From NCBI RefSeq assembly GCF_003391115.1, contig NZ_QTJP01000001.1, forward strand, positions 2,812,501-2,876,500: a stretch of DNA of 64,000 bases, given 5' to 3'. The notes beneath the pieces are model-generated. The model saw nothing but the letters and a program-made list of their open reading frames with translations. It searched no databases and was not told the origin of the DNA. How positions within the stretch are numbered: the first letter of the stretch is position 1; every line of letters begins with the position of its first letter. The position numbers and the translations under genes are program-made. The stretch comes from Sphingomonas crusticola. GTDB taxonomy: Bacteria > Pseudomonadota > Alphaproteobacteria > Sphingomonadales > Sphingomonadaceae. Of the stretch, positions 5,634-53,079 are shown in pieces.

Positions 5634-5995
5634 ACAACGGTAACTGGCTGGAAACTGGGCAACCGCGGCTGGGCGGCTCGCTGGGGGACGATCCGGCCCG
5701 CTACATAGACAATTCCCCTTATTATCACGCCGACCGCATCCACACGCCGCTGCTGATCCTCGAGGGTACAAACGACTTTGCCGGATTTATCGAGGGGCCG
5801 AAGATGTTCGCCGCGCTGCGCAGGTTAGACCGAACCGTCGAGCTGGCGCTATACGATGGCGCCGGTCACTCGCCTTCCAATTTCAAGGCATCGCAGGCGC
5901 AGGATCAGGCTATGCGAACGCTGGCCTTCTTAGAGAGGTATATGCCCACCAAAGGTTCGAAGCAGACGGTAACAGATCGCAGAACGCCTCCCTAG
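5634..5995 (+). pseudogene. 5'-truncated S9 peptidase fragment
   Basis: This frame matches the last ~108 residues of the S9 peptidase at 50467-52884 almost residue for residue, for example DDPARYIDNSPYYHADRIHT and FAGFIEGPKMFAALRRLDRT. It starts abruptly at 5634. It keeps the catalytic Asp and His regions (GTNDFAG, GAGHSP) but lacks the nucleophile Ser and the whole propeller. The TAG stop of the paralogue is CAG here, so the frame runs on for about a dozen codons. Many silent differences show an older duplicate, not a fresh copy. It has no start or RBS and is best read as a remnant at a recombination junction. Confidence 0.85.
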
Positions 5996-33042: not shown

Positions 33043-35645
33043 CACTGCTTGCTGATCGAGACGCTGACGACCCGCCCGAGCGGCGAATAGTTTGTCGAAT
33101 CGTAGGGGGTGTCGGAGAACTGAGTCGTCGCGATCTGCATCGGCTTGTCGTTCAGGACGTTGAAGACCGAGAAACCGATATCGAGGCGTCCGAGCAGCCC
33201 GCCGGCCCGGGTGCGGTAATGCGTCGCCAGATCGAGCGTGGTCATCGATCCGACGTGGACGACCTGCGTCGCACGCGGATCGTCCACGCCGCCGATATAG
33301 CTGAGCGTTGCGGTGAGGTTGAAGGGGCCGCGATCCCAACTCGCGCCGCCTCTGGCCCGAAAATGCGCCGGACTGAACAACTGCCCGGCGAGGAGCGTGA
33401 CCGGCTGCGAGCTGGTGATCTGCTGCTCGCTTTCGAGATAGCTGGCGTTGAAGCTGGCGGTCAGGCTGTTTGCTTTGCCGGGAAAAACCGCGCGATACCG
33501 AAAATAGGCGTCTACCCCGTGGATCGTCTGACGGCCGGCATTGACGTTACTGTCGTCGATCAGGAAGGCGACATTGGCTGGATCATAAGTAAGGCCACTG
33601 ATGTTCGCGAAGTTGAAGGCACCCGCTATGACGGCGGCGAGCAGCGCTGCCGACGGATTGGGCGTCAGCCGATCGCTATAAATCGGGTTGCTGAGCGACT
33701 GGCCGATGAATGCGATCGGGGTCACCACCCGATCACGGTAATCGATGTGGAAATAGGTCAGATCGAGATGGGCCCCCTCAATCACGCGCGGATGAATCGC
33801 AAGCGTGGCTGACCAAGTCGTCGCGCGCTCCGGCTTCAGGTTGGGATTGCCCCCTTGGACGAAGAGGTCCGTGCTGTTCGGGGGGAAACCGGTGCCGCCA
33901 AACGCCGCCGGTCCGCCCAGGACAAGCGTCCGCGCCTGGTACTTTTCAAGCAGGGTCGGCGCGCGGAACGATTTCCCCCAACTGCCCTTGATGTCGAAAT
34001 CGGGCGTCGGCGCGTAGATGATACCAAGCTTGGGCGTGACGATGTCACCGATGCCGCGGTAATCCTCGTATCGCAGAGCACTGCTGAGTTCGATCCTGCT
34101 GATGAGCGGGATCTCCTCAGCAGGAGATATGATCGGGATGCTCAGCTCGCCATAGCCATAATAGCTGTCTTGGCGCTGGTCGATGTTCTGGGCGTTGCCG
34201 GGGCCGAGGCTCCTGAACAGCGCATTGCGGCGATATCCTGCACCCAGCGCCAGTTTCACAGGGCCGGCCGGCAGGGCGAAGATCGTTCCGTCTCCGCCGA
34301 TTTCTGCCGACGCCGCAGTGTTGCAATAACAAAAGATCGTCGGTGCGGGGGCTGTTCCATTCGCATAGTTCGTGACGGTGTAGTGCGTCAGGTCGCGGCC
34401 ATAGGATCCCGTCGCGAACATCGACCAGCCATGTCCGAGCGTCAGGCGCAATGTCGGCGCGAGCGCATAGGACTCCACGGAGTAAGCGGTGACATTGCCG
34501 CTGAGCATAACATTCCCCGCGATGTTATTCGCGACGGACTTGGTGCTCCAGCGACGGTTATAGAGCCCGTCAAACTCCAGCGTCAGATCGGGTGCGAGAT
34601 CCTGATGCGCGCTCAATACCGCGTCATGATCCTTGATCGGCGGCAGCAATGACAGCGCGGGGCTCTTGTCGGCGGCATAGCTTCGATCCCGTCCGAAAAT
34701 GCCGGTCGTGCGCGCAAACTCATAGCTCGCGATGAACCCGCCCGAATTCCAACGCCAACCGCCAGAAGCGCCATAGCGTTGCTCGAAAGCCCCGCCGTCG
34801 GTCGACGTGCCGATCCGCGCACTGGTTTCAAGGCCTTCGGTGTCGCGACGCAGGACGATGTTCGCGACGCCCGCAACCGCGTCCGAACCATAAAGTGCCG
34901 AGGCCCCGTCGGGGACGATCTCGATCCGGCTGACGGCGGCGAGTGGGATGGCCGAGACATCGATACTCTGCCGTGATCCGCTGTACGACAGCCGGTGACC
35001 GTTAAGCAGGGTGAGCGTCGCAGCGCTGCCGATGCCGCGAAGGTTGATCGAAGAGCCGCTGCCAAGATTGAACCCGCTGTTAGCTGGCACGTTTGACCCG
35101 ACGCCAGGATTTTGCCCGCCGCCGAAGCTTTGCGGAATGGAGCGTACCACATCGCCGAGATTAGACTGACCGGCGTTGCGTATATCCTCCTGGTCGATGC
35201 GGATGACCGGGGACGCGATCGGCGCCCCGCGGATCCTGGAACCGGTGACGACGATATCCGCACCTGCAGCGTTCTCGGCCGAATCGCCCGCGTTGCCTGG
35301 CTCGCCAGGTGCGCTAGCGAGGGCGACGCCGAAAGGGACGATCGTCCACGTTTGGGTCCCGGTCTTCTGGGCCTGCAGTCCGGTGTCCTTGAGCAGCATC
35401 TGGAGTGCTTGGTCGATCGTCATCACGCCGTGGATCGCATTCGTCCGCTTGCCGCGCGCGTCCCGGGTAGAGATGAGAAGTTGGATGTCCGCCTGGCGGG
35501 CGAGGGTGCTCACGCCGAGAGCGGCGGGCTGGACTGGTATATCGAACGACTTGGTCTGTGCCGCGGCAGCTACCGGAACCGCGATCAAGACCGTCGCGGC
35601 CGTGAACACCGCGTGTCGCAGCCTGTTTTCCCGAACCATCGTCAT
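33039..35645 (-). CDS. TonB-dependent transducer with STN domain (module 1)
   Basis: The 868-aa receptor has a signal peptide (about 1-30) and an STN/secretin-like signalling domain (about 33-104: FDIPVQPAALGVSTLARQAD...TIDQALQMLLKDTGLQAQ). The TonB-box region ADIVVTGSRIRG (129-140), a plug with SINLRGIGSAATLTLLNGHRL and a barrel ending VVSVSISKQW follow. The STN domain contacts FecR across the periplasm when ligand is bound. AAGGGGG precedes three clustered ATGs; 35645 has the best spacing. An ECF-type promoter at 35688-35713 gives it its own transcript. The coupled isopeptidase suggests a lasso or similarly knotted peptide as ligand. Confidence 0.88.
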   Translation of the reverse strand: MTMVRENRLRHAVFTAATVLIAVPVAAAAQTKSFDIPVQPAALGVSTLARQADIQLLISTRDARGKRTNAIHGVMTIDQALQMLLKDTGLQAQKTGTQTWTIVPFGVALASAPGEPGNAGDSAENAAGADIVVTGSRIRGAPIASPVIRIDQEDIRNAGQSNLGDVVRSIPQSFGGGQNPGVGSNVPANSGFNLGSGSSINLRGIGSAATLTLLNGHRLSYSGSRQSIDVSAIPLAAVSRIEIVPDGASALYGSDAVAGVANIVLRRDTEGLETSARIGTSTDGGAFEQRYGASGGWRWNSGGFIASYEFARTTGIFGRDRSYAADKSPALSLLPPIKDHDAVLSAHQDLAPDLTLEFDGLYNRRWSTKSVANNIAGNVMLSGNVTAYSVESYALAPTLRLTLGHGWSMFATGSYGRDLTHYTVTNYANGTAPAPTIFCYCNTAASAEIGGDGTIFALPAGPVKLALGAGYRRNALFRSLGPGNAQNIDQRQDSYYGYGELSIPIISPAEEIPLISRIELSSALRYEDYRGIGDIVTPKLGIIYAPTPDFDIKGSWGKSFRAPTLLEKYQARTLVLGGPAAFGGTGFPPNSTDLFVQGGNPNLKPERATTWSATLAIHPRVIEGAHLDLTYFHIDYRDRVVTPIAFIGQSLSNPIYSDRLTPNPSAALLAAVIAGAFNFANISGLTYDPANVAFLIDDSNVNAGRQTIHGVDAYFRYRAVFPGKANSLTASFNASYLESEQQITSSQPVTLLAGQLFSPAHFRARGGASWDRGPFNLTATLSYIGGVDDPRATQVVHVGSMTTLDLATHYRTRAGGLLGRLDIGFSVFNVLNDKPMQIATTQFSDTPYDSTNYSPLGRVVSVSISKQW

Positions 35646-35687
35646 CATTTCCCCCTTCATCGCAGGCCATCGCGGCCTTGGGATTTA

Positions 35688-35713
35688 GACAGGCGGGGCG
35701 TGAATTTCCGTTT
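35688..35713 (-). promoter_or_regulatory. ECF promoter before receptor 1 (AAACGG-N16-TGTC)
   Basis: On the minus strand AAACGG and TGTCT are separated as in the promoter before sigma factor 1, and the flanking bases TCC (left) and WA (right) also agree. It lies about 43 bases upstream of the receptor start. Confidence 0.65.
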
Positions 35714-35724
35714 GGAATTTTCCG

Positions 35725-36690
35725 TTAGCCGGCTGCGTGGCCAATCCGGATCAGCCCCGGATCGTCCAGCAGGACAGGCGTGTTGAAACTGCGCTGGACT
35801 GCGGTCGCGAACCCGACCGGATCGTCCACGCGGAAAATTCCATAAAAACCTTCCTGTGACAGCGCCGGATCGTCGATCACGATCTTGCGCTGATTATACC
35901 GGTTGAACTCGCTTGCCGCCGCCCTGAGCGATTCACCGGCCAAGTCGATCTTTCCCCCGCGCCACGCCAGCGCGCGATCGACTTCGGATGGAGCCTGCTG
36001 TTTCTCCGTTATAGAGGCATTATCGGCGACGAAAGCGCGCTGTCCGGCGGTCAATCGCACCCGATGCCCCTCGGCGCCGTTCACCCACGCTTCGACCGCG
36101 CCCTCGGTCACGAGAACGTCTGCGCCGTTGTCGCGCCGGCGCACGGAGAAGGCCGTGCCGACCGCGCGGACCCGGATTGGACCAGCCTCGACCAGAAAGG
36201 GCCGGTCGCGGTCCTTGGCGACCTGGAACCATGCTTCTCCCCTGACGAGCCGAACCCGTCTGGTCACCTTTTCGAGAGCAACATCGATGTCACTGCCGGT
36301 ATTGATCGTTGCGACCGAGCCATCATCGAGCGGCACATGTCGTATCTCGCCCAGGCGGGTGCGATAGCGGTCCCCCCGCCTCGGCAGGAGAAACCCGCCA
36401 GCAAGCGAAGCGGCGAGCGCGGCACTTCCGGCCCCAAGCAGCCAGCGCCGCGATGGCCGAGCCGCGATGCCGGCCGTGGGGTTTGGCGCCACCAGTTCAG
36501 GCGCCGACAAATCCGGATCGAGCCGCGCCCAGGCGGCTTCGGCTTGAAGGAACGCGCCGCGGCGTCGGCTATCAGCGGCGAGCCACGCCTCGACCTCTTG
36601 CTCGAGTTCGGGTGTCCGGCCCGAGCGATCGAGCCGCATGACCCAGCGGGCGGCCTCCGCCTCAATATCCGTGGCGCGTTCGCGGGTCAT
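35725..36690 (-). CDS. FecR-type anti-sigma factor (module 1)
   Basis: The 321-aa protein has an N-terminal cytoplasmic anti-sigma region (AARWVMRLDRSG...EAWLAADSRRRGAFLQAEAAW), one membrane helix (about 83-101) and the periplasmic FecR domain (GEIRHVPLDDGSVATINTGSDI, VRLVRGEAWFQVAKDRDRPF, VGTAFSVR). A C-terminal part typical for contact with the receptor STN domain follows. It holds or activates the sigma factor depending on the receptor signal. Its ATG overlaps the sigma gene stop by 4 bases. Confidence 0.9.
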   Translation of the reverse strand: MTRERATDIEAEAARWVMRLDRSGRTPELEQEVEAWLAADSRRRGAFLQAEAAWARLDPDLSAPELVAPNPTAGIAARPSRRWLLGAGSAALAASLAGGFLLPRRGDRYRTRLGEIRHVPLDDGSVATINTGSDIDVALEKVTRRVRLVRGEAWFQVAKDRDRPFLVEAGPIRVRAVGTAFSVRRRDNGADVLVTEGAVEAWVNGAEGHRVRLTAGQRAFVADNASITEKQQAPSEVDRALAWRGGKIDLAGESLRAAASEFNRYNQRKIVIDDPALSQEGFYGIFRVDDPVGFATAVQRSFNTPVLLDDPGLIRIGHAAG

Positions 36691-37268
36691 GGGTGATGAA
36701 CCCGGCGCGCGCGGCGCGCCTGATATTCGCCCGCAACCTGCTCACCTTCCTGTCGAAGCGCGTCTAAAAGCATTCGCAATCCATTCGAGCTCTCATTCTC
36801 GACAACGTTTTCGGAAACGCCGAGCGCGGCAGCGATCTCGCGCTGCGATCGACCTTCGAGCTTCCGCATTTCGAAGATTTGCTGGCAGCGACCCGGCAGC
36901 CGATCGAGCAGCCGTCGCACACGTGTCCATTCGCGCCGGTCTCCGGCAAGCTGCTCCGGCGAGGGTGCGTCGTCATGAAGTTCGTGAAATTCTACCTCGG
37001 TCACCGCATCGATCCGCACGACACGCGCATGTCTAATTTGGTTGATCAACAGGTTGCGTACGATCTGGAAGAAAAAGGCGTCGGGCCGCTCGACATGTGT
37101 CACGCTGTCCAGCGCGGCGATGCGGCAATAGGCCTCTTGGATAAGATCATCGATATCCTCGCGCGCGACCATAGATCGCGCCAGCCACGCGCGCACCGCA
37201 GGCTCGTGAGGCATGACCTTCTGGGCCACCCACACGACGAGCTTCCGGCGTCTGTCGTCCTCCTTCAT
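36687..37268 (-). CDS. ECF sigma factor, FecI type (module 1)
   Basis: The 193-aa sigma-70 family protein has region 2 (DIDDLIQEAYCRIA, FFFQIVRNLLINQIRHARVV) and region 4 (LPGRCQQIFEMRKLEGRSQREIAAALGVSENVVEN). It lacks further regions, as expected for ECF factors. It should direct RNA polymerase to AAACGG-N16-TGTC promoters before itself and before receptor 1. The first two genes of module 1 (sigma, fecR) overlap by 4 bases. Confidence 0.9.
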   Translation of the reverse strand: MKEDDRRRKLVVWVAQKVMPHEPAVRAWLARSMVAREDIDDLIQEAYCRIAALDSVTHVERPDAFFFQIVRNLLINQIRHARVVRIDAVTEVEFHELHDDAPSPEQLAGDRREWTRVRRLLDRLPGRCQQIFEMRKLEGRSQREIAAALGVSENVVENESSNGLRMLLDALRQEGEQVAGEYQARRARRVHHP

Positions 37269-37308
37269 CCGCGTTCCAAGCCGCTGGGCGCGCCAGCATA
37301 TGACCTAA

Positions 37309-37334
37309 GACAGCCGGGGAAAGCTTTTCCGTTT
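37309..37334 (-). promoter_or_regulatory. ECF promoter before sigma factor 1 (AAACGG-N16-TGTC)
   Basis: On the minus strand AAACGG is followed after 16 bases by TGTCTTA, about 40 bases upstream of the sigma start. It matches the promoter at 35688-35713 in motif and spacing, which suggests autoregulation. Confidence 0.65.
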
Positions 37335-37736
37335 GGAGCGTAATGCGGTTGCGCACACCGGAGGTCGACGTTGGCGAGGGACTATGGCGGGCCAAAAATC
37401 GCGCACACGTAATGGAGCAGCAGGAACACTTTTGCGTTCGGCCTCCGCCATTTTTACGGCGTATCGGGCGCGAAGCTGCCCGCGAGCAACTCTCAGCTGG
37501 ATGTCCCTTGTGTCTACAAGCTGACCCAGCAGCTGCCATCCGGGCCGGTCGCTGCTCAACTCCAGACAATTATTCATGTGCCTATGCTCGGCTCTGTCTG
37601 GCCGAATGTGGCCGGTTGCTTTGGAGCACATCGCAAAAGCGGTCTATCCCGGCCGCCGGTTGGTCCTTCTGAGCCACAGGTCACGGCAGATCGACGAGGC
37701 GCAACTTCAACCGAATTCCCAAACTTTCTCACATTG
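37335..37736. other. Divergent gap between modules 1 and 2
   Basis: This stretch separates the promoters of sigma factors 1 and 2. Open frames run through it, but none has a start, RBS or protein signature that I can support. Confidence 0.45.
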
Positions 37737-37762
37737 TTTCGCAGTTGCTGAAGAAGCGCGTC
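37737..37762 (+). promoter_or_regulatory. ECF promoter before sigma factor 2 (TTTCGC-N16-CGTC)
   Basis: TTTCGCA (37737-37743) and GCGTCTTA (from 37758) have the same spacing as before receptor 2 at 39342. The predicted transcript start falls about 25 bases before GTG 37795, supporting that start. Confidence 0.65.
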
Positions 37763-37794
37763 TTATTCATCGTAAGGATGAGAACCATGGTGGT

Positions 37795-38304
37795 GTGATC
37801 GAGCCTGCGCATAAGGATTTGGAAGCCCTGAATCGCCGGATGCGTTCGGCGTTGACATCTTTTTTTGCGCGCCGCGTCGGCAACGCTTGTGAAGCGGAAG
37901 ATTTGACCCAGGAGGTCTTCATTCGCCTTGCGCGGAGCGCTGGCGATCAGATCATCGCGCCCGATGCCTACGTATTTCAGATCGCGGCGAACCTGTTGCG
38001 CGACCGGGCGCGCAGGGAAAAAGTGCGCGCCGATTACCGCGAAGCGAAGCGGCTGGAGGATTATGTCGATCTGGACCCGCTCGATCCGTTCCGGATCGCA
38101 GCCGGGCGACAGGGCTTGAACGTAATGGCGCGCGAGCTTGCCGAGTTGCCTGAAAAAACAAGAAGGATATTCACGCTGTATCGTATCGAAAGCATCGACA
38201 AGCACGTGATCGCCGCGACCTTCGGATTGTCGGTGCGCATGGTTGAGATGCATGTGCAGCGTGCGATGCTGAGGTTGTTCGAGAAGATGGGCGGCGATCT
38301 ATGA
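37795..38304 (+). CDS. ECF sigma factor, FecI type (module 2)
   Basis: The 169-aa protein shows sigma region 2 (FFARRVGNACEAEDLTQEVFIRLA, FQIAANLLRDRARRE) and region 4 (ELPEKTRRIFTLYRIESIDKHVIAATFGLSVRMVEMHVQRA). I choose GTG 37795, because the upstream part of the frame lacks similarity and crosses the predicted promoter. AAGGA lies upstream. It overlaps the fecR gene by 4 bases (ATGA). Its targets are inferred to be the TTTCGC-N16-CGTC promoters. Confidence 0.85.
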   Translation: MIEPAHKDLEALNRRMRSALTSFFARRVGNACEAEDLTQEVFIRLARSAGDQIIAPDAYVFQIAANLLRDRARREKVRADYREAKRLEDYVDLDPLDPFRIAAGRQGLNVMARELAELPEKTRRIFTLYRIESIDKHVIAATFGLSVRMVEMHVQRAMLRLFEKMGGDL

Positions 38305-39341
38305 GAGAAGCAGCCCCCGAACTCGAACAGGCCCGCGAGTGTGCGATCGGTTGGTGTATGCGATTGGCGGAGGGGTCAATCAGCCTGGAAGATCAGATCG
38401 CCTTCGAAACTTGGCGCGACGCCGACCCGCGCCATCGCGAGGCGTTTGCCCAGATGGCGCATCTGTGGAGCGCGGCCGGACATGTGGGGGACGAGCCGGA
38501 ATTGATCGCGGTGCGGGCGGATGCGCTCGAAGCAATGAGAGCGGCCAACAACCGGCGCTGGCCCAGTCGACTTGCCGGTCGCTGGCGCCCCCTTGTGGCA
38601 GCGGCTGCATGTCTGCTTTTGACGGTAACCGCCATCCTCCATCTCATGCAAGTGCGTCCTGACACCTATGTAACGGCCATTGGCGAACGCCGTGTCGTGA
38701 AATTGGGGGACGGTTCGAAGATTTCCCTCGATGCCGATACGAGGGTCCAGGTCGCATATAATGACGAGCGCCGCGCCCTCAGACTGCTTTCAGGTCGTGC
38801 AAAGTTCGATGTCGCGAAGGACCCGCGACGTCCCTTCACGGTCACGGCTGGAAATCGAATGGTCGTCGCGACAGGCACGGCCTTCAGTGTCGAACTGGTA
38901 AGCCGGCAGATGCGCGTCGTGCTTTACGAGGGCAATGTCGCCGTCCTTGAAAACGGCCCGTCCAACGAGCCGCCCAAGCATGTCCAGCTGATAGCCAGGA
39001 AGGTCGCGGCCGATCAGGACCTGAAACCCGGCAGGATCATGATTGCTTCGCTCGATCGGCCAGTCGCGGCGATCGAGGCTATCGACTTGCCGAGATCGCT
39101 TTTGTGGGAGGGCGGCCAACTCAATTTCTCGGATGAATTCCTGGCGACCGCGATCGAGCGCGTAAATCGATATTCCGATACGAAGATCGTCCTGCGCGGA
39201 AATGCCGATGGCATGCTGGTTAGCGGCGCCTTTAACGCGGGCGACAGCAGCGGTTTTGTCGACGGCGTGTCGGCAATTTACCCGTTGAATGTCCAACAGA
39301 AGGGCAATGTGATCGCGCTGACGGTCAAGCGACCGTCATAA
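38301..39341 (+). CDS. FecR-type anti-sigma factor (module 2)
   Basis: The 346-aa protein has the N-terminal anti-sigma region (CAIGWCMRLAEGSISLEDQIAFETWRDADPRHREAFAQMAHLW), a single membrane helix (about 96-113) and the FecR domain (GERRVVKLGDGSKISLDADT, LRLLSGRAKFDVAKDPRRPF, TGTAFSVE). A C-terminal STN-contact region with LLWEGGQLNFSDEFLATAIERVNRYS follows. The last domain is the part that senses the receptor in the periplasm. The start overlaps the sigma stop. Confidence 0.9.
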   Translation: MREAAPELEQARECAIGWCMRLAEGSISLEDQIAFETWRDADPRHREAFAQMAHLWSAAGHVGDEPELIAVRADALEAMRAANNRRWPSRLAGRWRPLVAAAACLLLTVTAILHLMQVRPDTYVTAIGERRVVKLGDGSKISLDADTRVQVAYNDERRALRLLSGRAKFDVAKDPRRPFTVTAGNRMVVATGTAFSVELVSRQMRVVLYEGNVAVLENGPSNEPPKHVQLIARKVAADQDLKPGRIMIASLDRPVAAIEAIDLPRSLLWEGGQLNFSDEFLATAIERVNRYSDTKIVLRGNADGMLVSGAFNAGDSSGFVDGVSAIYPLNVQQKGNVIALTVKRPS

Positions 39342-39367
39342 TTTCGCAATATCGGTCTTTCCGCGTC
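39342..39367 (+). promoter_or_regulatory. ECF promoter before receptor 2 (TTTCGC-N16-CGTC)
   Basis: TTTCGCA (39342-39348) and GCGTCTTA (39363-39370) lie directly after the fecR stop and about 50 bases before the receptor ATG. They match the sigma 2 promoter in motif and spacing. Confidence 0.65.
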
Positions 39368-39415
39368 TTACCTTATGGGCCGCGCGAGATCGAGGCGGCC
39401 CTCAAGGGGGGTCCG

Positions 39416-42031
39416 ATGCTCTTTCGCTTTCGTACGATGAACCGCTTAATCTATGGGGCGGCCGCCAGCGTCGCGCTGGCGACTCCGATCGCGGTGTGCG
39501 CGCAACAAAGCAGTTTCCAGCTCGACATACCGGCGCAAGATCTTGGCAGCGCACTCAAAGCATTGGCGAGCGCAGCCGGTCAGCAAGTAGTTTTCAAGGG
39601 CGCGTCTGTCCGCGGAAGGCGCAGCAACGCGTTGAAGGGCAATTATAGCATCGACGATGCGATAGGCTTCCTGATCCACGGTCAAGGGCTCCAGGCAGGG
39701 CGCAGCCCACGCGGCATTATCGTCATTAAGCCCGCCGCCGCGCCGGTAAACGGCCGGACCGAAGCTCAGGAACCCTCCCTCAATGCGGGCGCGCCGGGCC
39801 GAGCGGGGAGCGGCTTTTCTGACGAGTCCACGGCCGATACGAGCCAGGAAATCACGGTAACAGGCAGCCGATTGCTCTCAATCAATGAGCAATCCTCGCC
39901 ATCCACCACCGTGAACAGAACAGATTTTCGACTGTCGGGCGCTCAAACCGTACAGGCGGCTTTGGCAACGCTCTCGCAGACCTTCGCCGGTGACATCAAT
40001 CCCGAGACGGCCGGCGGCAAGCAATCCAACGGGTTTCGCTCGGACCGCGGCAGCAATGGCAGCAAAGGCTATTCGCCGAATTTGCGCGGCCTCGGCTCGG
40101 CTGCCACGCTTGCTCTAATCGACGGCAGCCGATTTCCGATCGGCTCGGAAGGCGCCGCGCCCGACGTCTCGATGATGCCGCTCGTTGCCTTGGATCGGAT
40201 CGAAGTGCTCAGGGACGGCGCCTCGCCGGTCTATGGAGCGGACGCGGTCGCGGGTGTCGTCAATCTCATTACCAAGACCCACCAGGATCAGCCGATGACA
40301 TCTGTCGGCTACGGGGGTGCGGACGGTGGCTACGCTACGTACCAGGCGAGTCATATCCAGGGCCTGGACTGGAACGGCGGATCGGGTGTCCTGGCGGCGC
40401 AATATGATAAAAGCGATAGGCTCAGCACCTTGGACCGTGCGCCAACGTCGCGCATCACGCCGGCATCGATCCTACCCGATCAACATCAATACTCGATCTT
40501 CGGCAGCCTCTCCCAAGATGTGGGCGGTTCGAACGAGCTAAGGCTAAAAGCCCTCGGCGCGCAGCGAAAATTCTCCAGCCCTTCTTCCGTACTCGATTTT
40601 TCACGTGGAAATACGAAGCTTGGATATGTGTCGGCATCCGGCATCTTCCGCCTGCCGGATAGCTGGGTCGTAAGCGTCAATGCGGATTTCTCGGCGAACC
40701 ATCTGATCAATCAGGCGCAATCACTAACCGGGGTTTACTCGAGAACCGACTATCGCGGGCATGAGGTCGGCGCCGGCGCGACGATTACCGGAACGCCATT
40801 CTCGCTGCCGGCCGGCCCCGTACGAACGGCGCTTGGCATCGATTACCGCTACAGCAAGCGCGAGTTCGTGACCCAAGGTGCTGCGGGGGCGTCGCTCGAT
40901 CGGACGGTCGCCGCGACCTTTGGCGAAATCGCGGTGCCCCTCCTTCGCGATGCGCCGCTTGCCAAGAGTGTTACCCTCGAAGCCGCAGTCCGATACGATC
41001 ATTACAGCGATTTCGGAGGCACGACCAATTCGCGCGTCGGGCTCGTTTGGCGCGTCAACTCTTCCATCCGGCTGCGCGCGACGCGGTCGACCTCGTTCCG
41101 CGCCCCAACGCTCTTTGACGAAAACGCGGCCGGCCTGCTTGCCGCTACGGTGAAAGCCAATGACCCGCAGCAAGGCGGATTGGTGACGGCACTACTCGTC
41201 ACCAATGGGGCCTATCCGGATCTGAAACCGGAAACCGCACGCAACCTGACGCTTGGATTTGACTTCACGTCCCAGGCATTGCCGGGAATGGGCCTGTCCG
41301 TCGACTATTACGACGTGGCATTCCGCAACCGGATCGCAGCGCCCGATACGGCCGTCACCACCTTGTTCAACCTCGCCGATCCCCTCGTGCAGCCTTTCCT
41401 CACCCGTTCGCCCGCTCTATCCAGCGTGACGTCGTTCTTCGCGCTGCCCGGCTTCCTCAGTACCACCGGTCCGACCACGACGCCGTCAGACGTTCGTGTG
41501 ATCATCGACGACCGCTCGGTCAATCTCGCCTCGACGACCGCAAAAGGGATCGATTTCCTCTTCCACGCAAATCTGCCGACATCCACCGGTGCGTTGACAT
41601 TCACCGCCGATGCCACGTTGAATTTGAGCTTCAAAGTACGAGCGCAGCCCGCGGCCCCCGAGCAGGAGTTCACTGGCCAGGCTTTCTTTGCGCCGCGCTA
41701 CAGGGTGAGAAGCGGTCTCGCTTATGTCGGGCAACGCTTCGAAGCGGCCGCATTTCTGAGATACACACCGTCGATGGACGACAAGCGGGTCGTCGCCGGC
41801 CGTCCTGCAGGCACTTACCACATCGATGACTATACGACGGCGGATTTGCATCTTGGGATGCTGCTGGGAAATGCCCGAACAGGTTTGAAGATCAGCCTGG
41901 ACGTCACGAATGCCTTCAACAAAGCGCCTCCTTATGTGCAGCCCATCAGCGCAACATATGCGAGCTACGATCCGTCCAATGCCTCGGTGATCGGCCGCGT
42001 TTCCCGTTTAACACTTACAAAGATGTGGTGA
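39416..42031 (+). CDS. TonB-dependent transducer with STN domain (module 2)
   Basis: The 871-aa receptor has a signal peptide (about 1-29, ending VCAQ) and an STN domain (about 33-105: FQLDIPAQDLGSALKALASAAG, NYSIDDAIGFLIHGQGL). The TonB-box region SQEITVTGSRLL (143-154), a plug with NLRGLGSAATLALIDGSRF and YGADAVAGVVNLIT, and a barrel ending SRLTLTKMW follow. AAGGGGGGT precedes the ATG. It would sense and import the ligand of module 2 and signal to FecR 2. Its coupled peptidase suggests a peptide ligand, but the identity is unknown. Confidence 0.88.
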   Translation: MLFRFRTMNRLIYGAAASVALATPIAVCAQQSSFQLDIPAQDLGSALKALASAAGQQVVFKGASVRGRRSNALKGNYSIDDAIGFLIHGQGLQAGRSPRGIIVIKPAAAPVNGRTEAQEPSLNAGAPGRAGSGFSDESTADTSQEITVTGSRLLSINEQSSPSTTVNRTDFRLSGAQTVQAALATLSQTFAGDINPETAGGKQSNGFRSDRGSNGSKGYSPNLRGLGSAATLALIDGSRFPIGSEGAAPDVSMMPLVALDRIEVLRDGASPVYGADAVAGVVNLITKTHQDQPMTSVGYGGADGGYATYQASHIQGLDWNGGSGVLAAQYDKSDRLSTLDRAPTSRITPASILPDQHQYSIFGSLSQDVGGSNELRLKALGAQRKFSSPSSVLDFSRGNTKLGYVSASGIFRLPDSWVVSVNADFSANHLINQAQSLTGVYSRTDYRGHEVGAGATITGTPFSLPAGPVRTALGIDYRYSKREFVTQGAAGASLDRTVAATFGEIAVPLLRDAPLAKSVTLEAAVRYDHYSDFGGTTNSRVGLVWRVNSSIRLRATRSTSFRAPTLFDENAAGLLAATVKANDPQQGGLVTALLVTNGAYPDLKPETARNLTLGFDFTSQALPGMGLSVDYYDVAFRNRIAAPDTAVTTLFNLADPLVQPFLTRSPALSSVTSFFALPGFLSTTGPTTTPSDVRVIIDDRSVNLASTTAKGIDFLFHANLPTSTGALTFTADATLNLSFKVRAQPAAPEQEFTGQAFFAPRYRVRSGLAYVGQRFEAAAFLRYTPSMDDKRVVAGRPAGTYHIDDYTTADLHLGMLLGNARTGLKISLDVTNAFNKAPPYVQPISATYASYDPSNASVIGRVSRLTLTKMW

Positions 42032-44619
42032 CCGTCGCGATGCGGCCGCTCATCTGGCTGGCTCTCATCTTCGCCTGTGGGATCGGCGAGGCGGGTTGGT
42101 CCCGCAGCCCGACCGACACCGCGGCGCGGCCATTCACCTTCGATGAAATGGCCAAGCTCGAAGACATTGGGCCGGGGGCTTTCACGCCCGATGGCAGCTC
42201 TCTGATTTTTGTTCGAAGGCCGCGGTTTAGCGACCTTCCCGATTATAGCCTCGCGCCGTTCGGCCCATTCTTTGGCGAGCTGATGACAGCAAACGCCCGA
42301 AGCGGCGACGCGAAGCCTCTGTTCCGGAAGAGCAAAGGGGCATTATATGCTCTCATCAGTCGGTCGCCGGATGGGCGCTACGTCGCTTATTTTCGAGCTT
42401 GCCGCGGCGAGCTACGGCTCGGCGTTTTTGACCGACGGACCGGGCGAGAGCGGATTTTAAACGATGCTCCGGCCCAGGATTACTACCATGAGCTGACGCC
42501 CATCTGGCTTGGGACCCACGAGCTTGCATTCAGTGCTCAGGAACCGGGCCAGTTGGCCGCTTACATGCCGTACTTCCGCCGCGCGACGGGGGAAGCTTTG
42601 CACAAGGCCTGGCAGGCGACCTGGGTGGGAAGAACAGCGTCCTACGGCCTCTATCGCAGCCGACCATCCAACGAGAATGCGCCCTTTCGAGGCATCCTGC
42701 TGCGAATCGATGTGTCGACGGGAAAATCGCACAAAATAGCCGACGGTCTCTATTCGGATTTGCGGGTCTCCCGCGATGGGAAATATCTCTCCGGCCTTCG
42801 CCAATATGAAAAGGACCAGCTTGGGACGGACGTGACCTCCACGGCGTGGACCTATGGTCGCGCGCACCTCGCGCTCTTCAATCTCCATTCCGGCAAGTCC
42901 GTTCAGGCAGTCCCGTCGCTCGACATAGTGCCGGGAACGATGGAATGGTCGCCCCATGACGACCGGATCGGTTTCTTCGCTTGGCCCAATGGCGGCGCGG
43001 CGGGGCAGGGACGCTTCTATTCCTTCGACCTTGCCCTCCATCAGCTTCGCGAATTCTCTCACCGCGGGCTCGACCTCGTCAACGAACGGGAGTTTGGCCC
43101 ACCGGGCCGGCCAATGCGCTTCCTGTGGCTTGGTCGAGATATCGCCGTGGCGGCTCGTCAAAATCCGGGAGGCGACCAGACGCCACGGTTTACCCAGCGC
43201 GGCGTTACTGGCCGCGACCTTAACGCGGACCCCGGCCGTTTCGACTGGTATCTGCTGGGAGACGGGGGGAGCATCCGCAACCTGACTTCCACGTACAAAA
43301 CGGTGTCGCCCTGGGTCGCCGGGGAGACGAGGTCGGGCGCTTATCTCATACTCGATCGCGAAGTGATGCGAATGGCAGCGGACGGGACCGCCTCGCGTAT
43401 CGCACCTGGTCGAAGGGTGGCAGCCTATCCGGAAGCCAGCGGGCCGGCCGTGCAAGGGCGCCAGCCCTTTGGCTCCACCGCGATTTTCCGTTCCGCGGAT
43501 GCAAACCAGCATCAATTGCTTGCCTTCGATCTCGCGCGCGGTGCGGAACGGGATTTGTCCTTCCCACCGGGCCTTGTAACCCTGATGGCGTTCGGGCCTG
43601 CATCCGGCAGCGTGGCTTTTAAGAAAATCCTTCCGAACGGGACGGACGTCGCCATCCAAGCCGGCGAACAAGCAGCAAGAGTGGTCTTCCGGATCAACAA
43701 GTTTCTGGCGGGTGTCGGCAAACCTTTGTCGTGGGCGATTAGCTATGCGGGGCGCAGCGGAGAAGCGCTGACAAGTTGTTTAACCCTGCCGGCAAACTAT
43801 CAGGCGGGCCATCGCTACCCGACAATCGTGTATGTCTATCCTGAGAGCACGCCATCCTGTTCGGCTGAACCTCTTCTTCAGCAGCCGATAGGATATGAAA
43901 ATCACAATATCCTCCTGGCGCACGGCTACGCTTTCCTTAGTGTGGCAAATCCCGGGATCGCCACCCGTGAGGGTGGACCGCTGGGCGGGATTGTTGAGGC
44001 CACCGATCGGGCGATCGATGCCGCGGTCGCGGAAGGATTGGTCGATCCGGAGCGGCTAGGGCTGATTGGCGCCAGTGGGGCTGGATATAGCGGCCTTTGG
44101 CTGGCGGGGCACAGCAACCGCTTCAAGGCGATTGTGTCGATAAACGGAATCGCCGACGCTCACACGCACTACTATTCTCATGGAATCGATCAGCTTTTCT
44201 ACTCTGAACTGGTGCCATGGAACGGACAGGCGCAGCGATATGAGGGGCGCGACCAATTCACGCTTCAGGCGTCCCCTTGGGAGAGCCCGGAGATTTATTG
44301 GAAGGCTAGTCCCGTCGCTTACGCGGATAAGATCGATGCAGCTGTTCTGCTGGTAAGCACCGATATGGATAGTGGCGGAATTTCCGAGCAATATGACGAA
44401 ATGTTCGTCGCGCTCCACCGCCTACGAAAAACCGTGGACTATGTGAAATATTGGGGGGAGTGGCACGGCCCCTCAAGCTTCGCCAATGTACGCGACCTTA
44501 CGCAGCGGACCGTGGCCTGGTTCGACAAATATGTTGCTCCAGCTAGGGCTGGCGGGCCGCTTGGCCGCGGGCGAGCATCGGGTTCGGAATGGGCTCCCTC
44601 GACTGCTACGCGGCCATGA
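42028..44619 (+). CDS. Exported S9-family peptidase (module 2)
   Basis: The 863-aa protein has a signal peptide, a long propeller with SRSPDGRYVAYFR-type repeats, and a C-terminal prolyl-oligopeptidase-like hydrolase domain. The nucleophile elbow is IGASGAGYSG (Ser683), slightly unlike the usual GxSxGG. Asp779/781 lies in STDMDSGG and His813 in WGEWHGP. It lacks the DLVRLRDIG opening of the module 1 enzyme, starting instead with FTFDEMAKLEDIGPGAFTPDG. GTG 42028 overlaps the receptor stop (GTGA); ATG 42040 is an alternative. It probably hydrolyses the peptide imported by receptor 2. The last ~25 residues are low complexity. Confidence 0.83.
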   Translation: MTVAMRPLIWLALIFACGIGEAGWSRSPTDTAARPFTFDEMAKLEDIGPGAFTPDGSSLIFVRRPRFSDLPDYSLAPFGPFFGELMTANARSGDAKPLFRKSKGALYALISRSPDGRYVAYFRACRGELRLGVFDRRTGRERILNDAPAQDYYHELTPIWLGTHELAFSAQEPGQLAAYMPYFRRATGEALHKAWQATWVGRTASYGLYRSRPSNENAPFRGILLRIDVSTGKSHKIADGLYSDLRVSRDGKYLSGLRQYEKDQLGTDVTSTAWTYGRAHLALFNLHSGKSVQAVPSLDIVPGTMEWSPHDDRIGFFAWPNGGAAGQGRFYSFDLALHQLREFSHRGLDLVNEREFGPPGRPMRFLWLGRDIAVAARQNPGGDQTPRFTQRGVTGRDLNADPGRFDWYLLGDGGSIRNLTSTYKTVSPWVAGETRSGAYLILDREVMRMAADGTASRIAPGRRVAAYPEASGPAVQGRQPFGSTAIFRSADANQHQLLAFDLARGAERDLSFPPGLVTLMAFGPASGSVAFKKILPNGTDVAIQAGEQAARVVFRINKFLAGVGKPLSWAISYAGRSGEALTSCLTLPANYQAGHRYPTIVYVYPESTPSCSAEPLLQQPIGYENHNILLAHGYAFLSVANPGIATREGGPLGGIVEATDRAIDAAVAEGLVDPERLGLIGASGAGYSGLWLAGHSNRFKAIVSINGIADAHTHYYSHGIDQLFYSELVPWNGQAQRYEGRDQFTLQASPWESPEIYWKASPVAYADKIDAAVLLVSTDMDSGGISEQYDEMFVALHRLRKTVDYVKYWGEWHGPSSFANVRDLTQRTVAWFDKYVAPARAGGPLGRGRASGSEWAPSTATRP

Positions 44620-44975
44620 CCATCGCACCTCCGGCAGCTAGGCGAAAGACCGCTTTGGACCACGCTTCGACGGCACGATCGGCAAAGATGCGGGGCAAAG
44701 ACCCCTCGGCCGTGTTCTAGTCGTCGACAGCCGCTTTTCAGGTAAGGTACAGCTGAGGCGGCCATGCGCCTGAGGGCCAGAAGCTCACGTTCGCGACGAA
44801 GCTTCTTAGGGACCAGAGGTATGCGTGCGTGCGATAGCGAAGACCCAATTGGAGACATTCACCCCGTCCGTGCGGCTTCCCGAAACCGGACGTTCGTTCA
44901 GCCGCCGCTCCACGCCTAATGCCGATGTCAATTCGTGATCTATAAATCTCGCAGTTCTTCTCCTAATTTCTCTCC
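44620..44975. other. Intergenic gap with a dispersed-repeat copy
   Basis: The gap after peptidase 2 holds no gene that I can support; the repeat copy lies at 44833-44901. Confidence 0.5.
44833..44901. repeat. Dispersed degenerate repeat, copy 1
   Basis: The copy runs from GATAGCGAAGACCCAATTG through GAGACATTC to CCGGACGTTCGTTCAG. Copies 2-5 keep the ordered blocks GACCCA, GCAGACATTCAGCG and CGGACGTTCGTTCA. Confidence 0.5.
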
Positions 44976-45656
44976 ATGGCACGCTATCAAGCCGATCCCG
45001 AACGTCGTCGCGTGGCTGCCTTAATCGACGAAGAAGTGGCGCGCGCACGTGCTGCCGAGGCTGAAGGAGGGTGGATTACATACTTGATCCGCGACCCTAG
45101 ATTCCCTGACAAGCTCGGCAATCCTAAGGGGACACCAATCTACGTAGGACAAAGCAAAGAGTTTGGCACGCGCGTCCGGTCACGTTTCGATAAATGCGAG
45201 AAAGCGGCGACGGCCAAAGATAGTGTTGAGCGCAGGGTGACGGACCTACTGCATGAGGGCTGGGTTGCCCCTTACGAAGTGCTGGAGCGTACCCCGACGC
45301 GACTGACATCCCTTATCTCAGAGACGAACTGGGCGCGGCGTTGCGTCAGGCGCGGGTATGACATTGCAAATCTTTTGCCGGAGCAGCGAGCACATGCGCC
45401 AGATATTGCCCGCGAGGGCATCCCAGCCAGTTGGATTTGGCCCTTCTTGGTCTCCGAAGCTATCGAAGACCAACTTACGCTGCAGTTGGACTGCGCTCAG
45501 TGCGGCTTATCGCTAACTCTGGATCTCAAGCGCTTCCTTGGCCTAGCCGCTCCGCCAAAGTCGCTGTGCGAGATACGAGACGACCCTATGTGGCGGGCAG
45601 AGCCTTGCACCGGATGCGGTAAACGCCACACGAGGTATGTCGCTCTCAAAATCTGA
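44976..45656 (+). CDS. GIY-YIG-like nuclease with C-terminal zinc ribbon
   Basis: The 226-aa protein has a GIY-YIG-like core near its N-terminus: WITYLIRD (33-40) and, after an insert, PIYVGQSKEFGTRVRSRF (54-71) with the arginine helix. A glutamate in ISETNWARR (about Glu116) is a possible metal ligand. Two CxxC pairs (Cys173/176, Cys211/214) form a probable zinc ribbon. No partner methylase or toxin-antitoxin gene is adjacent, and the flanking gaps carry repeats. It could be a homing, repair or restriction-type endonuclease. Divergence from the canonical GIY leaves activity uncertain. Confidence 0.65.
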   Translation: MARYQADPERRRVAALIDEEVARARAAEAEGGWITYLIRDPRFPDKLGNPKGTPIYVGQSKEFGTRVRSRFDKCEKAATAKDSVERRVTDLLHEGWVAPYEVLERTPTRLTSLISETNWARRCVRRGYDIANLLPEQRAHAPDIAREGIPASWIWPFLVSEAIEDQLTLQLDCAQCGLSLTLDLKRFLGLAAPPKSLCEIRDDPMWRAEPCTGCGKRHTRYVALKI

Positions 45657-45924
45657 AACCGGCTGGGCGCAAGCCTGAGGAAGCAGCTGTGTTCAGGCAG
45701 CTGCCGGATCCGAGAGAGCCAGAAGCAGACGTTGAAACCTAGCCACCGGCTACCAACTCCCGACGTTCGTTCAGCCCACCACTGCGGCAGCTAGGGGGCG
45801 CCCATTCCCAACGTCTGACGATGGCATAGGTTGGCAAACGCCTACATCGCTTGGTGGCGCTCGATTAGCATCAATTCGCCGTCACGCCCGGCATGCGAGG
45901 GCGAATTGCCCGCTCGTCCTATTT
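45657..45924. other. Intergenic gap with a dispersed-repeat copy
   Basis: Between the GIY-YIG-like gene and the sigma 3 promoter I see only the repeat copy at 45707-45774. Confidence 0.45.
45707..45774. repeat. Dispersed degenerate repeat, copy 2
   Basis: This copy keeps GAAGCAGACGTT and CCCGACGTTCGTTCAG, in the same order and distance as copy 1. Confidence 0.45.
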
Positions 45925-45951
45925 TTTGCGCCTTGTCCAATCTCAACCGTC
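45925..45951 (+). promoter_or_regulatory. ECF promoter before sigma factor 3 (TTTGCG-N17-CGTC)
   Basis: TTTGCG (45925-45930) and CGTC (45948-45951) have a 17-base spacer, as before receptor 3 at 47607. The predicted transcript start is near 45958. Confidence 0.6.
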
Positions 45952-45975
45952 ATAGATGTGCAAGGAGGACTGGGC

Positions 45976-46518
45976 TTGGGCCGCGTGGAGCCGGAACATC
46001 AGGGACGTATCAGCGACGAAAGCTGGTCAGTCGATCAGCTTTCGCGCCGCTATCAGGCTGTGCTCGTGCGCTATTTCTGTCGCCGCGGGATCGACTTGGC
46101 CGACACGCGGGACCTGGCGCAGGAGGTGTTCGAGCGCTTGTCCCGGCCTGAGGTGCGCGAACGGATCGGCCGCGTCGAAGGTTATCTGTTCAGCATCGCC
46201 GCCAATCTGGCGGTCGAATATTTCCGCTATCGCCAAGTCCGCCGCGCGCACCCGGTCGCCGACATCGTCACCTCCGTCCAGCGCGGCGAAGAATTTCCCC
46301 CCGATCGCCTTTTCGAAGGCCGCCAGGAGCTCGATATGGTCGTTGCCGCGCTGAATGAACTGCCCGAGCGCATGCGCCACATCTTCCTTTTGGCGCGGGT
46401 CGAGAATCTCACCCATGCAGAGATTGCCGCGCGACTGGGCGTCTCCAAACGCCTCGTTCAATATGAGGTGACTACGGCGACCGCCTGTCTGGCCGATCAC
46501 AGGAGGCGCGTAACGTGA
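45976..46518 (+). CDS. ECF sigma factor, FecI type (module 3)
   Basis: The 180-aa protein shows region 2 (YFCRRGIDLADTRDLAQEVFERLS, YLFSIAANLAVEYFRYRQVRR) and region 4 (LNELPERMRHIFLLARVENLTHAEIAARLGVSKRLVQYEVTTA). I choose TTG 45976 because AAGGAGG (45962-45968) is 7 bases upstream. GTG 45958 would be leaderless from the predicted promoter, and GTG 45985 is a further option. The fecR gene overlaps its stop by 4 bases. Confidence 0.85.
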   Translation: MGRVEPEHQGRISDESWSVDQLSRRYQAVLVRYFCRRGIDLADTRDLAQEVFERLSRPEVRERIGRVEGYLFSIAANLAVEYFRYRQVRRAHPVADIVTSVQRGEEFPPDRLFEGRQELDMVVAALNELPERMRHIFLLARVENLTHAEIAARLGVSKRLVQYEVTTATACLADHRRRVT

Positions 46519-47564
46519 GTATCGTATCGATCCGGCGAACCGGCAGCGCGAGCGCCACCGCCGAGACAGCCGCCTTCTGGGTTTTACGTCAGGAACGTGC
46601 CCCCCTGTCGGAGTTGGAGGAGGAGCGCTTCGCCGCGTGGCTCGCGGAAGACCTCGCCCATGTGGAAGCTTATGAAAATGCCATCTGGGCACTCGACGCG
46701 GCGGCGCATCATGCGGGGGAGGCGCCCATCCGCCAGATGCGCGACGCGGCGCTCGCCGCACGCGACGCGCGCAGGCCGCGCCGCTGGTTGAGCGCCGCCG
46801 GTGGTGCGCTGGCGGCGTCCCTGGCGGCCTTGTGGTTGTTCCTCGGGCTGCCGGGTGCCCAAAGGCCGCACAACGCCTCCAGCTACATCGCCGCGAGCGA
46901 TCCGAACAACGCCACTTATCGTACGCAGATCGGCGAACGGCTGACGGTGACCTTGCCGGACCAATCGCTCGCGACGATCGATACCAACAGCGAGCTTCGC
47001 GTGGCCTATTCCGCGACCGAGCGCCGCTTGACCCTGACGCGTGGCCAGGCTCTGTTCGAGGTCGCGCACGGCCGGCCGACGCCGTTCCGCGTAGCTGCGG
47101 GTGGCCGCGAAATCGTCGCGGTCGGCACCGTCTTCAACGTGCGTATCAAGGGGTCGGACGTGCGCGTCGCGCTGCTGGACGGCACGGTGCGGGTGCGCCC
47201 GGCAACGGACCGATCCGGCGAAACCGCGGCCGAGGTGACGATGCACGCCGGGGAGACGCTGCAGGCCTCGGCCACCGGCCGCGTCGCTGTCCAACCGGCG
47301 GATGTCGGGCAGGTGGCGAGCTGGCGCGGGGGCGACCTCGTCTTCAACGATGCCAAGCTTGCCGATGCCGTAGCCGAGATCAACCGTTACACGCGCCGGC
47401 CTATCCGGATCGAAAGCAACGCGATTATTGGCCTACGGATCAGTGGCGTGTTTCGGACCAACGATCCTGAGCGCTTCTCGCAAGCGATTACGGAGGTGCT
47501 ACCGGTTGATCTCGTCCGGCACGGCGACGGCGTGCTTTCGCTCCGCGCCCGGCAAGCGCCCTGA
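46515..47564 (+). CDS. FecR-type anti-sigma factor (module 3)
   Basis: The 349-aa protein starts at GTG (GTGA overlap with the sigma stop, AGGAGG upstream). It has the anti-sigma region (AAFWVLRQERAPLSELEEERFAAWLAEDLAHVEAYENAIW), a membrane helix (about 95-112), the FecR domain (GERLTVTLPDQSLATIDTNSEL, LTLTRGQALFEVAHGRPTPF, GTVFNVR) and the C-terminal receptor-contact domain (DLVFNDAKLADAVAEINRYTRRPI). It should transmit the signal of receptor 3 to sigma factor 3. Confidence 0.9.
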   Translation: MSIVSIRRTGSASATAETAAFWVLRQERAPLSELEEERFAAWLAEDLAHVEAYENAIWALDAAAHHAGEAPIRQMRDAALAARDARRPRRWLSAAGGALAASLAALWLFLGLPGAQRPHNASSYIAASDPNNATYRTQIGERLTVTLPDQSLATIDTNSELRVAYSATERRLTLTRGQALFEVAHGRPTPFRVAAGGREIVAVGTVFNVRIKGSDVRVALLDGTVRVRPATDRSGETAAEVTMHAGETLQASATGRVAVQPADVGQVASWRGGDLVFNDAKLADAVAEINRYTRRPIRIESNAIIGLRISGVFRTNDPERFSQAITEVLPVDLVRHGDGVLSLRARQAP

Positions 47565-47606
47565 TTGGGCCTAATCCGGATTGTGATACTACAATTTTGT
47601 GAAAAA

Positions 47607-47633
47607 TTTGCGGTGATCGCTCGGTTACCCGTC
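47607..47633 (+). promoter_or_regulatory. ECF promoter before receptor 3 (TTTGCG-N17-CGTC)
   Basis: TTTGCG (47607-47612) and CGTC (47630-47633) are separated by 17 bases, as in the sigma 3 promoter. The receptor ATG lies about 50 bases downstream. Confidence 0.6.
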
Positions 47634-47686
47634 CCTGGCATGGAAGTCACCGCGTTTGCGGCTGGCCCGTTGGGGATCGGGGGGAC

Positions 47687-50353: not shown

Positions 50354-50384
50354 CGATTGGCGGCGCTTCGGCTCCGCCAATCGC
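50353..50384 (+). promoter_or_regulatory. Hairpin between receptor 3 and peptidase 3
   Basis: A perfect 11-bp inverted repeat (50353-50363 with 50374-50384) with a 10-nt loop begins at the receptor stop codon. It lacks a T-run, so it is more likely an mRNA stabiliser or attenuator than a terminator. Confidence 0.5.
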
Positions 50385-50466
50385 AACGCGCGGCCGCACA
50401 GCAGCACGATCTGAAAGCGCCGGTCAGCGCAGATGTGCCGCCCTCAGCACTCAGGGAGGTTGTTCC

Positions 50467-52884: not shown

Positions 52885-53079
52885 ATAGGCAGGGCCATAG
52901 CACGGATCCGAGCTGTTGGCGATCCTGCGCCTTACCGCCACGAGCCGACGTACGCGCGAAGCTTCTATGGACTAGAAGCTGTCGTCACCGGCACGGCAGT
53001 GACGCTCCAATTGTGGTCACTCGGGCTGCGCTATCTGCTTCCCAGCTTTAGATGTTCACCAAGGTGAGCAGCGCGACAG

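Follow-up and report, generated by a model that had tools for sequence, protein, structure and literature searches.

Predicted promoter pairs matched within three neighbouring FecI-type signalling modules of Sphingomonas crusticola

The presence of three surface-signalling modules side by side in one bacterial genome raises the question of how each extracytoplasmic function (ECF) sigma factor would find its own target genes, and whether the gene of the sigma factor is itself among these targets. The modules lie in a 64,000-nucleotide (nt) stretch of Sphingomonas crusticola DNA (NCBI RefSeq assembly GCF_003391115.1, contig NZ_QTJP01000001.1, positions 2,812,501 to 2,876,500 of the forward strand), referred to here as the window, and share the gene order sigma factor, FecR, TonB-dependent receptor, and S9-family peptidase. 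Module 1 runs leftward from 37268 to 30919, while modules 2 and 3 run rightward, from 37795 to 44619 and from 45976 to 52884, respectively. Each module has two promoter-like sites, one before the sigma gene and one before the receptor gene, and the six sites are read here as ECF promoters, each pair of which would be recognized by the sigma factor of its own module, a reading with an estimated probability of roughly 0.73.

The original prediction placed AAACGG-N16-TGTC at 37334-37309 and 35713-35688 on the minus strand (module 1), TTTCGC-N16-CGTC at 37737 and 39342 (module 2), and TTTGCG-N17-CGTC at 45925 and 47607 (module 3), all close upstream of the predicted starts. The six sites were found at these positions, with the last base of the motif 24-53 nt before the inferred start codon, and they have the two boxes, the constant spacing, and the GTC-type -10 element of ECF-type promoters. 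For the -35 core of module 1, ACGGAAA (GGAA-N16-TC in the form common to the family) is a better reading than AAACGG. The predicted sites are:

37306..37336, minus strand, putative module 1 sigma promoter, CCAAACGGAAA-N13-TGTCTTA, at the position peak of GGAA-N16-TC in the family.
35685..35715, minus strand, putative module 1 receptor promoter, CCAAACGGAAA-N13-TGTCTAA, located by pattern match.
37737..37765, plus strand, putative module 2 sigma promoter, TTTCGCA-N15-CGTCTTA, compared with orthologs L212 and L213.
39342..39370, plus strand, putative module 2 receptor promoter, TTTCGCA-N15-CGTCTTA, compared with orthologs L212 and L213.
45925..45951, plus strand, putative module 3 sigma promoter, TTTGCG-N17-CGTC, weaker than the other five sites.
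47607..47633, plus strand, putative module 3 receptor promoter, TTTGCG-N17-CGTC(CCTG), with an identical box and spacing in ortholog L224.

A second AACGGAAA, at window positions 35719-35726 (minus strand), forms a tandem half-site 14 nt upstream of the copy in the -35 box of receptor 1.

The claim that each motif is present exactly twice holds only in part. Within the window, it is true of the module 3 pattern alone, given that the module 1 pattern is also found at 62688 (plus strand), and that of module 2 at 30967 (plus strand) and 40928 (minus strand). In the scan of the 3.37 Mb genome for further copies, the short patterns of modules 1, 2, and 3 matched 7, 13, and 9 times, near the level of the reversed control patterns (5, 12, and 7 matches), and for the short forms the claim is wrong. 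It does stand for modules 1 and 2 when exact matches of longer motifs are counted. These extended motifs were built from the two sites of each module themselves, and were searched in the genome with up to two mismatches. The only zero-mismatch matches of AAACGGAAA-N13-TGTCTNA are the two sites of module 1, and a single site with one mismatch (control: 2) sits over an apparent ribosome-binding site and the start of a small open reading frame (ORF). The TTTCGCA-N15-CGTCTTA motif recovers the two sites of module 2 without mismatches, none at one mismatch, and seven at two (control: 13).

The similarity between the sigma and receptor upstream regions was also compared with that of shuffled sequences. 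The best ungapped identity over 33 nt is 25, 21, and 18 in modules 1, 2, and 3, values reached by 0, 24, and 1982 of 5000 shuffles, respectively, while a graded 7+7 two-box score was equalled in 41, 0, and 220 of 3000 shuffles. An exact 6-N(15-18)-4 block of some kind was shared in 157, 76, and 70 of 3000. Between modules, none of the six sigma/receptor cross pairs shares an exact 6-N-4 block, and the upstream region of sigma 3 scores 12/14 against receptor 1, the same as against its own receptor (12). On the basis of these chance tests, modules 1 and 2 stand by themselves, while the case for module 3 is borderline and depends on ortholog L224.

The proposal of a private promoter shared by the sigma and receptor genes receives stronger support from related modules than from the window alone. 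Relatives of sigma 2 were searched for in 396 genomes of the order, 33 of which contain one at E <= 1e-20. In a test of 15 modules of the sigma-2 clade (including that of the window), anchored on the -10 core CGTC or TGTC, the modules' own sigma/receptor promoter pairs scored 109.0, against a maximum of 96.5 in random pairings (0/20000 permutations), and a convincing pair, with 6 to 8 of 8 -35 bases, was found in 11 of the 15. The -35 box matches between the two promoters of a module and varies from module to module, with the window's TTTCG box recurring before both genes in the two closest orthologs (63% and 60% identity). The boxes, with the loci in which they are found, are:

TTTCG(C): window module, L212 (TTTCGT before the sigma gene), and L213.
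TGTCCCT: L214, L215, and L222 (in the last, TGTCTCC on the receptor side).
GGGCGCA: L216.
TTCCTGT: L218.
TACTAGTT: L223.
TGTGA: L217.
GGCGG: L221.

Locus L219, judged by eye, has GGGCG boxes and a recognition helix resembling that of L216 (RTV[ED]KHISRAL), and no promoter pair was found in L220, L226, or L227. In the 12 modules that remained once three unusable at the -35 distance had been dropped, the identity of own pairs peaks 21-23 nt before CGTC, at 5.7/7, against 2.9 for cross pairs, and equals the background at 8-15 and 30-33 nt before CGTC. The distance between -35 boxes also tracks the distance between recognition helices when the rest of the sigma protein is controlled for (partial Mantel r 0.45, p 0.0036; 11 of the 15 modules, omitting L219, L220, L226, and L227). 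Locus L222 has the box and the helix type (SxSAVK[KQ]HVA) of L214 and L215, although its identity to them outside the recognition helix is only 48%.

The closest relatives of sigma 1 are at most about 51% identical, and its family comprises 52 modules, 33 in a first set and 19 usable of 20 held-out modules (one locus lacked the FecR end). The GGAA anchor was adopted after inspection of the upstream sequences of this family, and the 20 held-out modules were fetched afterwards. In all of the comparisons of relatives, modules without a recognized receptor were represented on that side by the 200 nt after FecR. The GGAA-N16-TC site precedes the receptor in 33 of the 52 modules (21 in the first set, 12 held out), the sigma gene in 17 (13 and 4), and both genes in 15 (12 and 3), while the 18 other spacings of GGAA and TC reach a maximum of 8/52 before the receptor and 6/52 before the sigma gene. 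In the modules with both sites, the base preceding TC agrees in 14/15, against a mean of 5.4 and a maximum of 13 in 20000 random pairings. An initial GGAA-anchored test of the first set had dropped the 13 of 33 modules without GGAA on both sides, and a pairing test anchored on CGTC/TGTC failed in this family (3234/20000; 33 modules). Judged by these site pairs, autoregulation appears to be a minority feature of the sigma-1 family.

The base before TC may, in turn, be related to the sigma protein. One column of region 2.4 ranks first of 182 for this base (z 8.9, against a largest null value of 5.7 in 200 permutations; 34 modules), pairing Asp with G, Glu with A, and Arg with C. For this analysis, the one T-class module of 35 was dropped, as was one of the two candidate sites of L235. 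A residue rule taken from 21 modules was correct in all 9 held-out modules to which it applied (4 of 13 had no rule), for a column that had been chosen with the held-out modules included. A link between the base before TC and a single sigma residue is thus suggestive only. A specificity code for ECF sigma factors is said to have been described in PNAS in 2020.

The ortholog of module 3, L224 (56% identity), has TTTGCG-N17-CGTCCCTG before its receptor, which is the box and spacing of receptor 3 of the window, and a degenerate site on the sigma side (5/8 in the -35). A genome-wide scan for sigma-3 relatives returned only two distant Sphingobacterium loci. A pairing test without a positional anchor, on 54 modules, of which lasso-cluster loci contributed 36, gave a weak signal, with an own mean of 11.80 and a cross mean of 11.49, and its place was taken by the position-anchored tests.

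A number of results weigh against the reading of six private promoters or against its proposed basis. The six promoters are predictions from sequence, and the pairing statistics are not otherwise corrected for shared ancestry. The pair of module 3 is unconvincing by itself in the shuffle tests, and the pairing test of the sigma-3 relatives failed (7479/20000; seven modules). In the sigma-1 family, 18 of the 52 modules have a receptor site only, two a sigma site only, and 17 neither. In the sigma-2 clade, the -35 distance also tracks the remainder of the sigma protein (r 0.60, or 0.38 as a partial correlation that controls for the helix), and no overall pairing was found in 20 more distant sigma-2-like modules (33-45% identity; 5795/20000), two of which came from the sigma-3 search, and only one of which, L302, is convincing. 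Nor was promoter pairing found in the lasso-cluster modules with other sigma types. As for the region 2.4 residue, the column ranks second of 183 in the 21 modules of the first set, with a z of 4.2, below the 95% point of the null (5.0), and nearest-neighbour similarity of the whole sigma protein is already enough to predict 8 of 13 held-out bases correctly. The residue at the candidate position of sigma 1 is Asn, and sigma 3, by eye, has Glu where its CGTC would predict Asp.

These results bear on several other explanations. The matches might reflect no more than chance among short, GC-biased patterns picked by eye, given the near-control frequency of the short patterns in the genome and the 2-5% of shuffles that share some exact 6-N-4 block; this is very improbable in view of the paired sites that recur among the relatives of modules 1 and 2, and of extended motifs that are unique for both modules. 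Under the canonical wiring of FecI systems, only the receptor promoters would depend on the sigma factor, the sigma-fecR genes being under other control (by an iron regulator, for example), and any similarity on the sigma side would be fortuitous. The fecIR and hasI genes are reported as not autoregulated in the sections of PMC9249621 drawn on here, as is hemI, though termed atypical there, in an extract of PMC12772443, and both the receptor-only modules of the sigma-1 family and the marginal pair of module 3 speak for such wiring. This arrangement is nevertheless unlikely in the window, where the module 1 pair is unmatched in 5000 shuffles, and it has to contend with the 0/20000 permutation results in two families and with an identity peak that falls at the -35 position.

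Two further explanations accept the sites and differ on what reads them. The shared sequences could be operators of a module-specific transcription factor, and the similarity in module 1 does reach beyond the two boxes (25/33 nt), with the half-site further upstream at receptor 1. The fixed spacing of the boxes, their distance from the starts, and the GTC-type -10 all speak against operators, however, and no other type of regulator was found among the 12 module genes scanned, so that this explanation is quite improbable. Alternatively, the sites may be promoters and the modules one shared regulon in which the three circuits cross-talk. GTC is present in each of the three -10 elements, modules 2 and 3 have -35 boxes that resemble each other (TTTCGC and TTTGCG), the upstream region of sigma 3 does not distinguish between receptors 1 and 3, and the ECF sigma factors of Bacillus subtilis cross-talk, according to the portion of PMC3817407 consulted. 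The lack of exact blocks shared by cross pairs, the differing recognition helices of the three sigma factors (SENVVENESSNGL, SVRMVEMHVQRAM, and SKRLVQYEVTTAT), and the -35 boxes that stay module-specific in relatives leave cross-talk doubtful, though a possibility to be taken seriously. In the main reading, each circuit has its own pair of promoters, and the three may be insulated from each other; because of the GTC common to the -10 elements, discrimination would rest mainly on the -35.

The claim of autoregulation thus survives unevenly, being well supported at the level of sequence for modules 1 and 2, because of the paired-promoter evidence from their relatives, and to a moderate degree for module 3. 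Not all such modules share it, as indicated by the receptor-only members of the sigma-1 family and the negative result in the distant sigma-2 relatives.

The protein components of FecI/FecR/FecA-type surface signalling are found in all three modules. The sigma factors contain ECF regions 2 and 4 (PF04542 and PF08281 in 3/3), the FecR proteins have the PF04773 domain (3/3) and a hydrophobic, membrane-type segment, and the TonB receptors have an N-terminal STN signalling domain (PF07660 in 3/3). The fourth component, a sigma-specific promoter before the receptor, is indicated at the sequence level only, by the families of modules 1 and 2, and by one ortholog for module 3. The predicted genes are:

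36687..37268, minus strand, sigma 1, FecI-type ECF sigma factor of 193 amino acids, with N76 of region 2.4 (codon 37043-37041) as a candidate specificity residue.
35725..36690, minus strand, FecR 1, predicted anti-sigma factor and transducer, PF04773 and DUF4880, strongest hydrophobic 19-mer from residue 84.
33039..35660, minus strand, TonB-dependent receptor 1 with N-terminal STN domain, PF07660, PF07715, and PF00593.
30919..33039 (putative start; mechanical ORF to 33339), minus strand, module 1 peptidase, predicted AtxE2-type lasso peptide isopeptidase, NF033523.
37795..38304 (inferred GTG start), plus strand, sigma 2, FecI-type ECF sigma factor, with the sigma4 recognition helix at 38230-38268.
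38301..39341, plus strand, FecR 2, PF04773 and PF16220, strongest hydrophobic 19-mer from residue 98.
39416..42031, plus strand, TonB-dependent receptor 2 with STN domain, from domain search.
42025..44619, plus strand, module 2 S9-family peptidase, PF00326, with NF033523 at 48.5 bits, below the AtxE2-type cut-off of 400.
45976..46518 (TTG start inferred from AAGGAGGA), plus strand, sigma 3, FecI-type ECF sigma factor.
46515..47564, plus strand, FecR 3, PF04773, strongest hydrophobic 19-mer from residue 94.
47687..50353, plus strand, TonB-dependent receptor 3 with STN domain, from domain search.
50467..52884, plus strand, module 3 S9-family peptidase, PF00326, with NF033523 at 101.5 bits, below the AtxE2-type cut-off of 400.

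Two of these starts differ from the alternatives. The GTG at 37795, with AAGGATGAG upstream, is the more likely start of sigma 2; the mechanical ORF, 37576-38304, would enclose its promoter site, and the closest relative, L212, has an ATG at the position aligned with this GTG. For sigma 3, the TTG at 45976, behind AAGGAGGA, is likelier than a start at 45958. Elsewhere in the window, a 333-bp stretch (5634-5966) is a detached partial copy of the module 3 peptidase gene, with 86% DNA identity to its 3' end (52553-52885), and receptor genes 2 (40082-40269) and 3 (48266-48453) have in common a stretch of 191 alignment columns with 69% DNA identity.

The module 1 peptidase scores 794.6 bits against NF033523 (curated cut-off 400), and its best match among solved structures is AtxE2 (5txc; 475.9 bits), with the GLSDG motif, which is presumed to carry the AtxE2-type serine nucleophile, conserved in the alignment. 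It is thus predicted to be an AtxE2-type lasso peptide isopeptidase. No lasso B or C homologs were found in the window, and the only PF13471 match of the genome lies outside it, at C1:2786060, about 57 kb from module 1 and beside a second isopeptidase. Given the lack of biosynthesis genes in the window, module 1 is an isopeptidase module rather than a complete lasso cluster, and possibly serves a foreign or a second lasso peptide.

The lasso cluster to the left of the window (L088, C1:2773500-2793300) has its own isopeptidase, receptor, and PF13471 protein, and a likely precursor is encoded by a small ORF that lies upstream of B and ends in VETK-GPGGKPGDVQLGRFELGLVED. No convincing sigma/receptor promoter pair was found in this cluster, and two other FecI-type loci of the genome lack the module arrangement: in L039, an ORF judged by eye to encode an STN-like receptor overlaps the FecR end, and in L038, no recognized receptor follows FecR. 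In the relatives, lasso clusters mostly have the sigma-fecR-receptor-isopeptidase genes facing the C and B genes, and promoter pairing is present in three isopeptidase modules (L213, L217, and L247). An upstream stretch like GTTCTCAACACCCGGCTTTTGCCGGC-TCGCCTCG is common, by eye, to the lasso-cluster sigma genes of L088, L096, L110, L114, L118, and L124, and no Rfam family reached the gathering score in L088, L110, and L118, where this stretch precedes the sigma gene. An AGGGT[AT] motif some 15 nt before CGTC, seen by eye upstream of the receptors of L096, L098, L112, and L116, is perhaps another type of promoter.

The modules of the window are a variant of a known circuit, and not a new kind. 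They resemble the Escherichia coli FecI-FecR-FecA system in the ECF sigma factor, FecR, the STN-bearing TonB receptor, and the sigma-type promoter before the receptor, and differ from it in the S9 peptidase that closes each module and in the matched promoter before the sigma gene, a site that points the opposite way from the lack of autoregulation of E. coli fecIR noted in the cited part of PMC9249621, and of hasI and hemI. Isopeptidase-type lasso clusters, such as those of AtxE2 of Asticcacaulis and of sphingopyxin, are known, from excerpts of PMC9266682, to include a TonB receptor and sigma/anti-sigma genes, as in module 1, which differs in having no lasso B/C gene in the window; the peptidases of modules 2 and 3 fall below the family cut-off. 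The promoter grammar and the sigma gene's own promoter recall the autoregulated ECF groups and the orthogonal ECF promoter set of Rhodius et al. (2013), in which differing boxes insulate the sigma factors. That large survey (PMC3817407) omitted the six FecI-like groups on the view that they lack autoregulation, and for the FecI of Sinorhizobium meliloti, it is reported that no promoter motif could be identified. No paper on FecI-like promoter pairs was noticed among the matches listed in the open literature. Unusual here are the presence of a matched promoter in front of the sigma gene and the diversification from one module to the next.

The positions of the sites, the domain content, and the co-variation of the paired promoters across relatives, as observed here, would fit the following course of ligand binding, induction, and transcription. 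A peptide ligand, probably a lasso peptide in module 1, would bind the STN-bearing TonB receptor, with the signal passing through FecR to release the sigma factor of the module. The freed sigma factor would then transcribe two operons, the sigma-fecR operon to which its own gene belongs and that of the receptor and peptidase, which would result in a substrate-induced uptake circuit with positive feedback. The neighbouring peptidases suggest peptides, rather than iron carriers, as the ligands. Specificity may arise from domain 4 of the sigma factor, which would read a module-specific -35 in the sigma-2 clade, and from region 2.4, which in the sigma-1 family would read the base that precedes the -10 TC.

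It is somewhat more probable than the reverse that closed positive-feedback FecI-FecR-TonB-receptor modules with a private promoter pair exist in at least two FecI-type sigma lineages of the order, their promoter alphabet diversifying in one of two places: in the -35, read by the helix of domain 4 (sigma-2 clade), or in the base that precedes the -10 TC, of which a single residue of region 2.4 is perhaps the reader (sigma-1 family; Asp-G, Glu-A, Arg-C). As a hypothesis of specificity, the link between residue and base is direct and testable. Matched promoter pairs provide two anchors per module, and therefore a route to FecI-like promoters from sequence alone, which also covers the promoters of lasso-peptide modules, to which PMC9266682 ascribes an enigmatic role. 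If the proposal is true, the wiring would be readable in a sigma group omitted by earlier promoter mining, and many parallel peptide-uptake modules would stay insulated within a single cell.

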